Assembly: GCA_020444325.1 (NCBI GenBank)
Contig: JAHLLD010000005.1
Location: 62,001 to 126,000, forward strand
Direction of reading: 5' to 3'
DNA length: 64,000 nt
DNA from: a bacterium
GTDB taxonomy: Bacteria > Bacteroidota > Ignavibacteria > SZUA-365
In this document: positions 25,365-30,813 of the stretch, piece after piece
Layout: each line of letters starts with the position of its first letter
Position numbering within the stretch: the first letter of the stretch is position 1
The notes under the pieces: generated by a model
The model's database searches: none
What the model saw: the letters and a program-made list of their open reading frames with translations, nothing else
What the model was told of the DNA's origin: nothing
Program-made: the position numbers and the translations under genes

Positions 25365-26777
25365 TTACGGCTGCTGCCGCAGCACACCCCGCTGAATGAG
25401 CAGATCTTCCGCTTCGCGTGCGGACCGCACGGCATCGGCGTTCGCCGTCTGTCCGAGCTTGCGGTACGCGAATTCCAGCAGCGAGGTCAGGGTGTCGCGG
25501 ATGCCGATACGGCTCTGTTCGTCCTGTATCTGCAGCCAGGCGTGCTGTTCGTTGAGTCTGCGCAGGCGATACACGATTTTCCCCGGGTGCGTGCTGTCGC
25601 GCATGGCGCGCGTGTAGACGCGGCGGAGGTAGGCGGCGACATTCGGTGAGTCGCCGTTGCTGCCAAGACGGCGTTCCACGCGTGCGAGCGTATTGTGGAT
25701 GGTGCTCGAATCGGCGACCATCTCCTTGAGCCGGATATTATTTCCGGGAGGCATGCGCAGCCGCACGGCATCTTCGCGATGCTGCGGGAAACCGCGCTTC
25801 TTGAGATTGTACACCAGTCCGAGACAGAAATCCTTGGTCAGATTGGTTGTCAGGAAATTGAGTCCCGCGGTAATGATCATATCTCCCGTGGCGCCGGTCA
25901 GCAGGGGAAATTTCCCGATGAGGTTCTGCCGCATGAACAGTGCCTGATTGTGTGCGCGCTGAATGTCGCCACCCGGCAGTGTGCGCCTTGTCCGCAGAAA
26001 CTGCAGCGTACTGACCGGATCGCGGTATCCGAGAATCTCCATAATGCCCATCGCCTGACTGAAACCCACTTCCACGAAGTAGTTGACGGGTCCGCGCTGC
26101 GCGATTTTGGCAACCTTGCGCAGCAGGCGCTGGTTGTCGGTGGTCTTCGCGTTGGCAATGATGTTGAACGTCGTGGTGTCGGGGTAGCCGAGATCCGAGT
26201 ATGTATCGCGGGGAATGGACATGATTTCCACGACGGCGCTGTCGGGATTGATGCTGACAAGATGCAGGGCGTCGGCGCGGGCATCGCGTGCGGAGAGACG
26301 GGAGTCGATGCCGATGATGAGGATGTTGATCAGGCGTCCGCCGACCGGGGGACGACGGGAGAGCCGCTGCAGTTGGGCATGCAGTGCGGAATCTCCTTCG
26401 ATGGGACGCACAGGCAGACGGGCACGGCGCTCGTCTGTCAGCCGTTCGGCGTCTGATACCAGGGTGTCGCTGCGCGGCTGCTCCACTGCGGCGCTGCGCA
26501 CACGATCCGCCACTTCCTCGAGATGCTCCTCTTCTGCCCACTGATACATCCCATCGGTCACATCCTTGGCAAGATACAGGGTCTCGCGCAGCACGTCACC
26601 CGGTCCGGGGATGCTGTGTATGGTGGAAGAGACGAACCACCAGGCGGTGATCACGACGGCGCTCCAGAAAAGGAAACGACCCATGAATCCCAGGAAACGG
26701 CGGAAACTGCCCTTCCCTTTCGTTCTTGCGTTTCCTGTGCTTTCGGTGCTCTCGGCGTTGTGGCCGCTATCTGACAT
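25365..26777 (-). CDS. LytR-CpsA-Psr (LCP) family envelope protein
   Basis: 470 residues. A single transmembrane anchor lies at about residues 32-50 (FLGFMGRFLFWSAVVITAWWFVSS). The LCP domain spans about 145-310: NILIIGIDSRLSARDARADALHLVSINPDSAVVEIMSIPRDTY carries the conserved Asp and Arg residues that bind polyprenyl pyrophosphate. LCP enzymes transfer undecaprenyl-linked glycopolymers to the envelope; the acceptor in a diderm is unclear. The start overlaps the end of the metH-like gene by 11 bases. Confidence 0.85.
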   Translation of the reverse strand: MSDSGHNAESTESTGNARTKGKGSFRRFLGFMGRFLFWSAVVITAWWFVSSTIHSIPGPGDVLRETLYLAKDVTDGMYQWAEEEHLEEVADRVRSAAVEQPRSDTLVSDAERLTDERRARLPVRPIEGDSALHAQLQRLSRRPPVGGRLINILIIGIDSRLSARDARADALHLVSINPDSAVVEIMSIPRDTYSDLGYPDTTTFNIIANAKTTDNQRLLRKVAKIAQRGPVNYFVEVGFSQAMGIMEILGYRDPVSTLQFLRTRRTLPGGDIQRAHNQALFMRQNLIGKFPLLTGATGDMIITAGLNFLTTNLTKDFCLGLVYNLKKRGFPQHREDAVRLRMPPGNNIRLKEMVADSSTIHNTLARVERRLGSNGDSPNVAAYLRRVYTRAMRDSTHPGKIVYRLRRLNEQHAWLQIQDEQSRIGIRDTLTSLLEFAYRKLGQTANADAVRSAREAEDLLIQRGVLRQQP

Positions 26778-28551
26778 TGAAATAACGTGCTTCGGAATGG
26801 TGAACGATAATTGCGCTGGTGCTCTGTTCGGGGACCAGCTGGAATTCCTCCGTCAGGGAGATATCAGCGCGCTCGGGGCGCAGCATGTCGAAAAGCTGCA
26901 CCTGGTCTTCCAGGTTGGGACATGCCGGGTAGCCGAAGGAATAGCGCGATCCCTGGTATCCTTGCGAAAAGAGACGCTTGAGATCAGCGGCGTCACTGCC
27001 GGCGATGCCAAGTTCCTGACGGATGATTTTATGCCAGTATTCCGCCAGCGCTTCGGCGCATTCGACGCCGAGTCCATGGACATACAGATAATCCTGGTAA
27101 CGATCCTGAGCGAACAGTGAAGCGGCGTATTCCGTGGCGCTGCGTCCCATTGTGACGATATGGAAGGCACAGATATCGGGGCCGCCTTCCTCCGCGGTGC
27201 GAAAATAATCCGCAAGACAAAGATAACGGTCGCGTTCCTGACGTGGAAATGTAAAGCGCTGCCAGGGTACAAGCTGTTCGATCGCATACTGCTTCCGGGG
27301 CCAGACCTCGTGCAGTGCGCTGCCATCGAGATCCGCGGGACGGTAGATGATCAGGTCGTCGCCTTCCGCGTGGCAGGGGAAATACCCGTACACCACGGCA
27401 GGCTGCAGCACGGCGTCGCGCTTGAGCTGCAGCTTCAATGCGGCGAGACGGGGATACACGATCTCGTCAAGCTCGCGCTGCACTTCCTCCGCATCGCGTC
27501 CGCTGCGGCGGAACTGCCACTGTCCGCGAATAAGCGCGCTCTCGTTGATGTATTCATAGACTTTCTCAAGCGCCACGTCTCGCACGATTTTACTGCCCAG
27601 GAACGGCGCGTCAGGCACGGGCACGTTTCGTGCCACCGCCGAGCGCCTGGGCGCCCCCGCAGGTACCGACGGCGGAATCCTGTCTGCCTCCTGCTTGCTC
27701 TGCACGCGCTCGGCGGCCGCGATTTTCGCCTCCATTCCCGTCAGTTCTTCCTCTTCGGCAGCTCCGTCGGCAGCGGAAGCGATGGTACCTCCTGCGATAT
27801 CCTCCATCAGCCGCAGTCCGTCGAAGGCGTCCCGCGCATAGCGGAGTTCGCCGCCGTAGAGGGGACGCAAATCCTCTTCCACATAGCGGCGGGTGAGTGC
27901 GGCGCCGCCGAGAATGACTGGCAGCTGCAGTCCGCGCTGCTGCATGATTTCGAGATTCTCTTTCATGATGAGCGTCGATTTCACAAGCAGTCCGCTCATG
28001 CCCAGTGCATCTGCCCTGTGTTCGCGTACCGCGGTGAGCATGGTCTCGGCGGGCACCTTGATGCCGAGATTCACCACCCGGAAGCCGTTGTTCGTCAGGA
28101 TGATGTCGACGAGATTCTTGCCGATGTCGTGCACGTCACCTTTGACCGTGGCCAGCACGATGCATGCCTTCTCGCTCTCCTCGCTCCTGTCCATATGCGG
28201 TTCGAGGAAGGTCACCGCGGCCTTCATGGTTTCTGCCGACTGCAGCACGAACGGCAGCTGCATCTGTCCCGAGCCGAACAGCTCGCCGACGGTTTTCATC
28301 CCGTCGAGCAGGATGCTGTTGATAATTGCGAGTGGCGGGTGCTCACGCAGGGCCGCTTCAAGATCGGCGTCGAGTCCGATGCGGTCTCCGTCGACAATAC
28401 GCCGCTTGAGCCGCTCTTCGACCGGTGCATTCTCATCGGTTTCGCGTTCCTGCTGCATCGACTGTCCCGCCGCGTAATGTTCCATGAAGGCGACAAGGGG
28501 GTCGTAGCTGCAGGTACGGGAGGAACCGGTGCTCTTTGCGCGTTCGCTCAT
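26767..28551 (-). CDS. metH: Methionine synthase C-terminal half: cobalamin-binding and activation domains only
   Basis: 594 residues against about 1,200 for full MetH. A helical cap (LKRRIVDGDRIGLDADLEAAL) leads to the B12 domain with the base-off ligand His141 in DVHDIGKN and GMSGLLVKS/VILGGAALT. The C-terminal SAM-binding reactivation domain shows YGYFP, VTMGRSATEYA and GSRYSFGYPACPN. The N-terminal homocysteine and methyltetrahydrofolate domains are absent, so activity would need a separate N-terminal protein. The start at 28551 follows AAGGA with non-coding sequence upstream, so this is not a window artefact. Confidence 0.9.
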   Translation of the reverse strand: MSERAKSTGSSRTCSYDPLVAFMEHYAAGQSMQQERETDENAPVEERLKRRIVDGDRIGLDADLEAALREHPPLAIINSILLDGMKTVGELFGSGQMQLPFVLQSAETMKAAVTFLEPHMDRSEESEKACIVLATVKGDVHDIGKNLVDIILTNNGFRVVNLGIKVPAETMLTAVREHRADALGMSGLLVKSTLIMKENLEIMQQRGLQLPVILGGAALTRRYVEEDLRPLYGGELRYARDAFDGLRLMEDIAGGTIASAADGAAEEEELTGMEAKIAAAERVQSKQEADRIPPSVPAGAPRRSAVARNVPVPDAPFLGSKIVRDVALEKVYEYINESALIRGQWQFRRSGRDAEEVQRELDEIVYPRLAALKLQLKRDAVLQPAVVYGYFPCHAEGDDLIIYRPADLDGSALHEVWPRKQYAIEQLVPWQRFTFPRQERDRYLCLADYFRTAEEGGPDICAFHIVTMGRSATEYAASLFAQDRYQDYLYVHGLGVECAEALAEYWHKIIRQELGIAGSDAADLKRLFSQGYQGSRYSFGYPACPNLEDQVQLFDMLRPERADISLTEEFQLVPEQSTSAIIVHHSEARYFNVR

Positions 28552-28675
28552 ACAAATCCTTCGGGGTTTTTTTATCTGAAACTTTAAATATATGATTTGA
28601 TGTTGTATTATCTGTGGTCACTCGATGGAGCAGAATTACCACGCGTCATTCCCGCATGAGTTTTTTACGCAGGAC

Positions 28676-28704
28676 TTGACAAATCCGAAAAAAGCTCTTA
28701 CATT
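28676..28704 (+). promoter_or_regulatory. Sigma70-like promoter of the Rrf2 gene
   Basis: TTGACA (28676-28681), 17-bp spacer, TACATT (28699-28704). The stretch after it (AAAAGGTAATCAAATC) is AT-rich and could hold an Rrf2 site, which I cannot define. Confidence 0.55.
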
Positions 28705-28765
28705 TCCTACAAAAAGGTAATCAAATCTTTATTTATTAATTGCCCACCATCAAGGAGCGGTTGAC

Positions 28766-29293
28766 GTGTTATACTCAAAGACAGCCCAGTACTCGATCCA
28801 GTCCATGTTGTTCATCGCGGCGAACAACTCCGAACAGAACATTCTCGTGCGCGACGTAGCAAAGGAACTGGGGTTGCCCTCATCGTTTCTGAGCAAAATC
28901 CTGCAGACGCTCAGCCGGTACGGTTTTCTCAATTCGGTCAAGGGACCCAAAGGCGGCTTTTCGCTTTCGGAGAAGGGCGCCGCATCGTCCATTGCGGAAC
29001 TCGTCGCCGTTGTTGACGGTCCGATGAATTTCGACATGTGTCTCGCCGGGTTCAGCCCCTGCAGCGAAGAGAATGCCTGTCCGTTCCATAGCGAATGGAA
29101 ACGTATTCGTGAAGAAATCCGTGAGCTGGTAAACAGCAAGAGCATTTTCGAACTCGCGAAGGAAATGCCCATCCGCTACCGTACGCTGCTGACCGGCGTT
29201 GCCGAGGAAGCTCCCGCAAAGAAGAAAAAAGCTGCGAAGAAGGCTCCCGCAAAGAAAGCAGCGAAAAAGGCGACCGCAAAGAAGAAGAAATAA
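28766..29293 (+). CDS. Rrf2-family iron-sulfur regulator with Lys/Ala-rich tail
   Basis: 175 residues from a GTG start preceded by AAGGAG. The winged helix (VRDVAKELGLPSSFLSKILQTLSRYGFLNSVKGPKGGFSLS, about 28-68) is typical of Rrf2/IscR/NsrR. Three cysteines (Cys92, Cys99, Cys105, in CLAGFSPC...CPFH) match the [2Fe-2S]-binding set. After residue 147 the family domain is followed by a tail of about 28 residues made of Ala, Lys and Pro, like a histone H1 or HU-type tail, not usual for Rrf2. It should sense iron-sulfur, NO or redox state. A terminator follows. Confidence 0.9.
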   Translation: MLYSKTAQYSIQSMLFIAANNSEQNILVRDVAKELGLPSSFLSKILQTLSRYGFLNSVKGPKGGFSLSEKGAASSIAELVAVVDGPMNFDMCLAGFSPCSEENACPFHSEWKRIREEIRELVNSKSIFELAKEMPIRYRTLLTGVAEEAPAKKKKAAKKAPAKKAAKKATAKKKK

Positions 29294-29316
29294 CACTTCT
29301 CTGCCATCAGATTGTG

Positions 29317-29350
29317 AAAACCGGACCCGCTCGCGGCGTCCGGTTTTTTT
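29317..29350 (+). terminator. Rho-independent terminator of the Rrf2 gene
   Basis: A 9-bp stem AAAACCGGA / TCCGGTTTT closes into a seven-T run 24 bases after the stop codon. Confidence 0.88.
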
Positions 29351-29487: not shown

Positions 29488-30813
29488 ATGCACAGATCCA
29501 TATACATAGAGACTTACGGCTGTCAGATGAACTTCGCTGACACCGAGATCGTCAACGGCATTCTGCGTGAGCAGGGCTACGAGCTTTCGACGGAACTGGA
29601 AAGCGCGGATGCCATTTTCATGAACACCTGCGCGATACGCGATAACGCCGAGCAGAGGATTTACGGACGGCTTTCGAACTTCGAGCACCTGAAGAAGAAA
29701 AATCCGCATCTCGTCATCGGCATCCTGGGCTGCATGGCCGAGCGTCTGCGCAGCGATCTTCTCGACAGCAATGCATCGGTGGATATCGTGTGCGGACCGG
29801 ACGAGTACCGCAGGCTGCCCGCGTTGATCGATGCTGCGTTTGAAGGTGAGAAGGGGATTCGCACGCAGCTTTCCCGCGTCGAGACGTACGACGACATCGT
29901 ACCCCTGCGTACCGAAGGTATCAGTGCCTGGGTCGCCGTGATGCGCGGCTGTGACAAGTTCTGTACGTTCTGCGTCGTGCCGTTTACCAGGGGACGCGAA
30001 CGCAGCCGGTCACTCGATGGTGTGGTCGGCGAGGTACGCGACCTGGTAGGCCGCGGCTTCCGCGAGGTGACGCTGCTGGGACAGAATGTGAACTCCTATA
30101 TCGATGAGGGACGCGATTTCGCGGATCTGCTCATCGCGGTTTCCGAAATCGACCCTGCCCTCCGCGTTCGTTTCACGACCTCGCATCCGCAGGATATGTC
30201 CGACCGCCTGATCGCCGCCATTGCCGAACACGATAATATCTGCAACTATATTCATCTGCCGTTCCAGTCCGGCTCCGATCCGGTGCTCGAGGCCATGAAC
30301 AGGACGTACACCCGCGAGCATTATCTGGGACTGGTGCGAAAAATCCGCGCCGCCATTCCCGATGTCGCACTGTCCACCGACGTCATCGCCGGCTTCCCGG
30401 GCGAGACGGAAGAGGACCATCAGCTGACGCTTTCGCTGATGGAGGAAGTTCGCTTCGACGGGGCGTTCATGTTCAAGTACTCGCCGCGTGAAAAGACGCG
30501 TGCCTGGAAAATGGGTGATACCGTTCCCGACGATGTCAAAGGCAGGCGCCTGGAAGAAATCATCGATCTGCAGCGCAGGATTTCCTATGAAATCAACCGC
30601 GAACAGATCGGTAGCGTCGAGGAAATCATGCTCGAGGGACCGAGCAAGCGCTCGGTCGAAGAGTGGATGGGACGTACCGGTACCAACAAAACCGTGATCG
30701 TGCCGCGCGGCGACTATCGCGCCGGTGACACGCTGCAGGTGCGTATCAAGAGCGCAACCTCTGCCACGCTGTTTGCTGAGGCTGTTGCCCGGCAGCAGGT
30801 CGAAGCCGCCTGA
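29488..30813 (+). CDS. miaB: tRNA-2-methylthio-N6-dimethylallyladenosine synthase
   Basis: 441 residues, typical length. The N-terminal UPF0004 domain holds cluster ligands in YGCQMN (Cys12), NTCAIRDNAEQ and GCMAER. The radical-SAM motif is CDKFCTFC (Cys155, Cys159, Cys162) with PFTRGRERSR after it. A C-terminal TRAM domain ends the protein. It methylthiolates i6A37 in tRNA. It opens a plus-strand run with SPOR, MBL, sigma54 activator and LptE genes. Confidence 0.96.
   Translation: MHRSIYIETYGCQMNFADTEIVNGILREQGYELSTELESADAIFMNTCAIRDNAEQRIYGRLSNFEHLKKKNPHLVIGILGCMAERLRSDLLDSNASVDIVCGPDEYRRLPALIDAAFEGEKGIRTQLSRVETYDDIVPLRTEGISAWVAVMRGCDKFCTFCVVPFTRGRERSRSLDGVVGEVRDLVGRGFREVTLLGQNVNSYIDEGRDFADLLIAVSEIDPALRVRFTTSHPQDMSDRLIAAIAEHDNICNYIHLPFQSGSDPVLEAMNRTYTREHYLGLVRKIRAAIPDVALSTDVIAGFPGETEEDHQLTLSLMEEVRFDGAFMFKYSPREKTRAWKMGDTVPDDVKGRRLEEIIDLQRRISYEINREQIGSVEEIMLEGPSKRSVEEWMGRTGTNKTVIVPRGDYRAGDTLQVRIKSATSATLFAEAVARQQVEAA

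Follow-up and report, generated by a model that had tools for sequence, protein, structure and literature searches.

The window (the whole 64,000-nucleotide stretch of DNA that was analysed) carries the gene of an Rrf2-family regulator, located between a divergent gene related to methionine synthase and a downstream gene of the MiaB type. The 175-residue protein begins with VLYSKTAQYS, and its GTG start codon is preceded by an AAGGAG ribosome-binding sequence at 28752-28757. The features of the locus are the following.

26767-28551, minus strand: C-terminal half of methionine synthase (MetH-C), divergent neighbour (PF02607, PF02310, PF02965)
28676-28704, plus strand: sigma-70-type promoter of the rrf2 gene, TTGACA-17-TACATT, 10 of 12 consensus matches
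28698-28737, plus strand: conserved element of about 40 bp, TTACATTTCCTACAAAAAGGTAATCAAATCTTTATTTATT, lying across the -10 and start region; putative operator for self-regulation, or leader element
28766-29293, plus strand: Rrf2-family regulator gene (rrf2)
29039-29089, plus strand: putative Fe-S ligand segment, with the codons of Cys92 (29039), Cys99 (29060), Cys105 (29078) and His108 (29087)
29198-29290, plus strand: Lys/Ala/Pro-rich, H1-like tail, predicted disordered, residues 145-175, net charge +12
29316-29348, plus strand: intrinsic terminator (hairpin followed by T), -21 kcal/mol, z -3.8
29488-30813, plus strand: MiaB-type radical SAM protein, downstream neighbour (UPF0004, Radical_SAM, TRAM)

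The divergent gene encodes B12-binding and activation domains without methyltransferase domains, and it adjoins rrf2 in 11 of the 12 genomes sampled from the family of the source organism (f1, counting the source genome, G000), not being seen there in G007. The MiaB gene lies downstream of rrf2 in all 12, about 1.0 kb off in G005 and about 1.4 kb off in G007, and a SPOR-domain gene is also found downstream. At the ortholog loci of the sister family f3, neither MetH-C nor the MiaB gene was detected within the 1.5 kb examined. The terminator 3' of the gene, absent from the list of a simple consensus scan, is probable, and rrf2 is therefore probably transcribed alone. A second conserved block was observed at 28574-28585, immediately upstream of metH, the divergent gene; it is ATCTGAAACTTT on the plus strand and reads TCTGAAACTTT in 10 of 10 family genomes of the g1, g3 and g5 groups.

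Residues 4-132 of the protein matched the Pfam Rrf2 family (PF02082; 89.2 bits, cut-off 30; E 3.3e-25), and the score against the NCBIfam Rrf2 superfamily model TIGR00738 (99.1 bits) exceeded its cut-off of 73.3. The scores against the NCBIfam equivalog models were all below their cut-offs, namely those of IscR (65.8 against 207.55 bits), NsrR (36.4 against 182), CymR (51.8 against 195), RirA (47.8 against 193) and the SUF regulator (66 against 110.65). Cys92, Cys99, Cys105 and His108 were invariant across 16 aligned sequences, the window protein and distant family members included, and this alignment together with the Pfam match confirmed the Rrf2 domain with cysteines at 92, 99 and 105 that had been proposed from the DNA sequence. 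An AlphaFold2 model built on the 16-sequence alignment (mean pLDDT 77.8) was confident in the Rrf2 core, with block means of 77-93 before residue 142, and had a conventional winged-helix Rrf2 fold that matched CymR, NsrR, RsrR and IscR with E-values of about 5e-8 to 7e-7; the same four proteins were the best matches in a profile comparison of the core. The winged-helix core, the three cysteines and the IscR-position histidine are thus held in common with IscR, NsrR, RsrR and CymR, although the equivalog cut-offs of IscR, NsrR and CymR are not reached. The cluster ligands of Escherichia coli IscR are given as Cys92, Cys98, Cys104 and His107 (PMC5411485), to which the window protein presents a matching Cys3-His set with a spacing that is off by one residue, whereas Asp8, described by the same source as a cluster ligand in Streptomyces coelicolor NsrR, has Gln as its counterpart at position 8. 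The protein is probably an IscR-like regulator, whose three cysteines and one histidine would hold an Fe-S cluster.

Two promoter-like sites were identified in the region against 0.7 expected, and the -35 hexamer TTGACA of the rrf2 promoter was found in 13 of 14 aligned loci, with G008 reading TTGCTA. The conserved element has hardly changed across 10 of the 12 family genomes, but cannot be recognised at the rrf2 loci of G005 and G007, both of which encode a tail. Genome-wide searches covered the ten family genomes other than these two. The strict search (3 mismatches) returned 11 places, comprising the ten rrf2 promoters, one in each genome, and a single place elsewhere in G008, against none for a reversed-pattern control, whereas the relaxed search (2 mismatches) returned 16 places, six of them outside rrf2 promoters, which is no excess over the 15 obtained in the control. 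Neither search of the ten genomes named a regulon, and no inverted repeat of at least 7 bp was found in the element. Its overlap with the -10 fits repression of the regulator's own gene, and from the sequence the regulator probably controls its own promoter through this candidate element. Because the element has no recognisable copy in G005 and G007 and no inverted repeat of that length, its role may instead be that of a promoter or leader element, with no operator function; the step of autoregulation is weakened by the two divergent loci, which leave the claim regarding the tail unaffected.

From residue 145 the protein continues as VAEEAPAKKKKAAKKAPAKKAAKKATAKKKK, in which 27 of 31 residues are Lys, Ala or Pro, and pLDDT values below 50 over residues 142-175 predict disorder. 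The Lys/Ala/Pro tail noticed initially was thereby borne out, charge and predicted disorder included, and it shares with H1-like and HupB-like tails a Lys/Ala/Pro-rich, disordered and strongly basic character as well as PAKK/KAAK-type units. The Pfam model of H1-like nucleoproteins, HC2 (PF07382), had no match in the source genome. It did match the rrf2 tails of G003, G006, G010 and G011, with only that of G010 above the cut-off (43.6 bits against 40), and we read these matches on the relatives' tails as compositional. The tail is no simple repeat at the level of DNA, since tandem repeat analysis (TRF) identified only about two imperfect copies of a 27-mer and its lysine and alanine codons are mixed. 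The 4.65-Mb source genome contains five Rrf2-domain matches, all located, and the four other proteins are without a C-terminal Lys/Ala/Pro tail, indicating that the tail is a trait of this ortholog and not a habit of the Rrf2 proteins of this genome.

Some Rrf2 match was detected in at least 98 of 100 related genomes, and orthologs with 62-98% identity were found in all 11 other sampled f1 genomes, four of the same genus and seven from four other genera. Alignment of these orthologs revealed a basic tail in all 12 family genomes (five genera, the window's own protein counted), with 29-72 residues and a net charge of +10 to +26. The original prediction had named two observations that would speak for repeat slippage without selection, absence of the tail from close orthologs and free variation of its length; the former was found in none of the 12 f1 genomes, and of the latter only the range of lengths was seen, since the basic, acid-poor composition is retained. 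The tails of G005 and G007, which belong to two genera, contain 59% and 47% Lys/Ala/Pro, where the remaining ten have 78-95%, and are richer in Arg, Thr, Ser or Gly. Of three genomes from the sister family f3, which belongs to the same order, two encode an ortholog (59-60% identity) that is tail-less, extending six residues beyond the core, while only paralog-level matches were obtained from the third f3 genome (36%; genome 70% complete) and from the single f2 genome (34%; genome 74% complete). Within this sampling the tail is thus a trait of the family, present in 12 of 12 f1 genomes and absent from the two f3 orthologs.

No Lys/Ala tail was seen at the C-terminus encoded by any of 16 further loci (L020-L035). 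Among the matches listed from 100 relatives and 392 genomes of the phylum, most of those outside the family stop before query residue 145; G078, G039, G057, G079, G099 and a paralog in G005 reach residues 146-154 without a stop, and others do so only through a stop. Examination of the C-termini of the Rrf2 proteins of G078, G039 and G443 found no Lys/Ala tail. As a local match may end short of a tail, and further matches may lie beyond those listed, tailed Rrf2 proteins may also occur elsewhere, outside the family. Plasmid records with a match numbered 222, all below 60% identity, and seven of them span at least 80% of the query. A description of a Lys-tailed Rrf2 protein was not found in the literature searched, which most subscription journals lay outside.

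To these distributions we added an analysis of the substitutions in the tail, with pN/pS computed over ten genomes (all but G005 and G007), corresponding to 45 non-independent pairs. Pooled over these pairs, the tail had a pS of 0.82, with synonymous sites near saturation, and a pN of 0.27. In ten pairs, pN/pS was 0.03-0.08 in the core and 0.03-0.39 in the tail, so that evolution is faster in the tail than in the core, though the tail is clearly constrained; tail pS in the ten pairs was 0.59-0.95, which makes recent copying alone an insufficient explanation. In the closest pair (G000 and G002), the tails differ by 19 synonymous and two non-synonymous changes. Lysine codons pooled over the 12 tails comprised 110 AAG and 87 AAA, against 12 Glu codons, and past tail position 8 acidic residues accounted for only 2 of 426 across the 12 tails. 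Because K-to-E and AAA-to-AAG are the same type of single transition, few Glu codons beside a mixture of AAG and AAA count in favour of selection. MAFFT pairs Lys with Lys, which lowers the apparent K/E counts in the codon alignment, whereas the pooled codon counts are alignment-independent.

A neutral simulation of the window tail (0.5 changes per site, 2000 runs), restricted to point changes so that re-expansion of repeats is outside its model, retained a mean of 12 of 31 residues and a mean of 5.6 lysines, with a maximum of 11; the observed counts are 14 for the window tail and 13 for that of G002. The neutral runs gave a mean of 3.4 acidic residues, against two in the window, and a net charge of up to 13, against 12, so that neither measure is discriminating for the window tail by itself. 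Recent repeat expansions are possible in G003, G010 and G011. As judged from these comparisons, the composition of the tail is under purifying selection in family f1, with clear constraint.

Other proteins rich in Lys and Ala were observed in the family. A gene of the source genome that lies outside the window, about 60 kb ahead of rrf2 (L046:1234-2112, minus strand, G000:C5), encodes a 292-residue protein in which about 175 N-terminal Lys/Ala/Pro-rich residues are fused to an ArsC-family (ArsC/Spx-like) domain. In 9 of 12 family genomes, a DksA/TraR zinc-finger protein (L051:852-2093, minus strand, G000:C3; also L096 and L098-L105) has a Lys/Ala-rich N-terminal extension of 215-325 residues, measured up to 90 before its zinc finger; the reading was cut or unclear close to contig ends for G010 and G011, and G002 matched a different zinc-finger protein only. 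A third protein (L047:1917-2483, minus strand, G000:C1) combines a weak, below-cut-off match to a Cro/C1-type HTH with an internal stretch rich in Lys, Ala, Arg and Pro.

The explanation that we favour, and hold to be somewhat better than an even chance, is that the window protein is an IscR-like and probably self-regulating Rrf2 factor whose polybasic disordered tail serves as a non-specific DNA-binding arm. In such a factor, the Fe-S cluster or its loss would set the shape of the dimer, which would bind the element over its own -10, and the sequence-independent affinity of the tail, by analogy with known tails, would shorten the search and lengthen the residence. By raising affinity for any DNA, the tail would keep a scarce dimer on the nucleoid, where it would find its operator faster and leave it more slowly.

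Basic tails as a concept are already familiar from Fur, HU, topoisomerase I and AlgP, and PgFur, HupB and AlgP are the analogies that make affinity for DNA the most likely role here. The lysine-tailed PgFur (Har) of Porphyromonas gingivalis is the best precedent, a metalloregulator from the Bacteroidetes whose short C-terminal Lys/Ala/Pro tail, KKAADKAAPKKKK, increases non-specific binding to DNA and is required in vivo. Loss of these last 13 residues is reported to give the null (deletion) phenotype, and during purification the full-length protein retained DNA and the truncated one hardly did, a statement given in that source as data not shown (PMC6613475). The same source reports that PgFur bound its specific promoter in vitro with or without the tail, so that binding to an operator in vitro may be independent of such a tail. 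Butler et al. describe the lysine-rich tail as confined to Bacteroidetes among Fur homologues and used tail-less Har to reduce non-specific DNA binding (PMC4222909). PgFur differs in belonging to the Fur family and not to Rrf2, and in a tail about half as long (13-16 residues removed in the two studies). In mycobacterial HupB, a PAKK/KAAK tail is reported to be required for association with DNA and the nucleoid in vivo (PMC5676037), although HupB has an HU core and is a major nucleoid protein. Fragments of the tail of Pseudomonas AlgP bind DNA, according to PMC9239181, and AlgP and PhaF resemble the window protein in a KPAA-type disordered tail; AlgP differs in a disordered domain of 195 residues, a predicted helical N-terminal domain and its association with granules. 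Actinobacterial topoisomerase I likewise carries lysine repeats in its C-terminal domain, but it is an enzyme and not a regulator, and the repeats are reported to confer high processivity (PMC7398561).

The original prediction went further and proposed a redox-tuned nucleoid-associated or DNA-bridging regulator that would act through its tail at many loci or at long range, which we regard as unlikely. The requirement of similar tails for nucleoid binding by HupB in vivo (PMC5676037) speaks for it, and the lack of further copies of the element would fit binding elsewhere that is not sequence-specific. Against it stand the shortness of the window tail (31 residues), the conventional winged-helix Rrf2 fold of the core and the single conserved local site, which is the signature of a specific regulator. 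As the sole conserved regulatory signature found is that of its own promoter, the evidence suits an ordinary local regulator no less than a nucleoid protein. In place of the nucleoid or long-range role first proposed, we favour a site-specific regulator that has an arm for non-specific DNA binding.

It is similarly doubtful that the tail is a sensor arm for polyphosphate, binding it through its lysines, such that polyphosphate made under stress would titrate the tail and move the regulator off DNA or alter its stability. AlgP, with its KPAA tail, is reported to sit on polyphosphate granules and to need the tail to space them (PMC9239181), and non-covalent binding of polyphosphate to lysine-rich protein sequences has been described (PMC12077175). 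All 12 tail-bearing genomes have a PP_kinase domain and the three f3 genomes, whose two orthologs are tail-less, have none, but the domain also occurs in the single f2 genome, where the search gave no ortholog, and in half of the control genomes (7 of 14). Since the f3 genomes are 70-96% complete and form one phylogenetic contrast, the co-occurrence of tail and PP_kinase counts about once.

Polybasic disordered tails can bind any polyanion, and the tail might accordingly bind RNA or ribosomes, or be a target of lysine acetylation that tunes binding, and not be mainly a DNA arm. This we consider rather improbable. Acetylation of the Har tail has been suggested by Butler et al. (PMC4222909); against this reading, DNA would be the polyanion nearest to the tail, since the tail is attached to a DNA-binding domain.

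Two of these roles could be joined in a two-input switch, in which the Fe-S cluster would set operator specificity while the H1-like arm would sense free DNA versus polyphosphate, with stress polyphosphate lifting the regulator off the nucleoid. Such a switch, which we judge very unlikely, would account for the joint presence of tail and polyphosphate kinase in the family and for the lack of both in the sampled sister-family genomes.

Neutral repeat slippage, by which the tail would be a harmless low-complexity extension, is suggested by the range of lengths (29-72), the variable repeat register and the identical APAKK or PAAKK runs of some orthologs, but is highly improbable and was largely rejected on account of the retention of the tail in 12 of 12 family genomes, of the retained Lys/Ala composition with acidic residues nearly absent beyond the first tail residues, of lysines that persist while synonymous sites are near saturation, and of the loss of Lys in the neutral simulation.

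If the tail of this IscR-like factor is indeed a non-specific DNA-binding arm, Rrf2 would join Fur, represented by PgFur, among the site-specific metalloregulators that have acquired an H1-like arm, and such arms would be a reusable means of tuning bacterial transcription factors, beyond nucleoid proteins. The natural series of tails of 29-72 residues on a conserved core, together with the tail-less orthologs of the sister family, would then be a ready experiment on how the length and charge of a tail relate to search speed and specificity.
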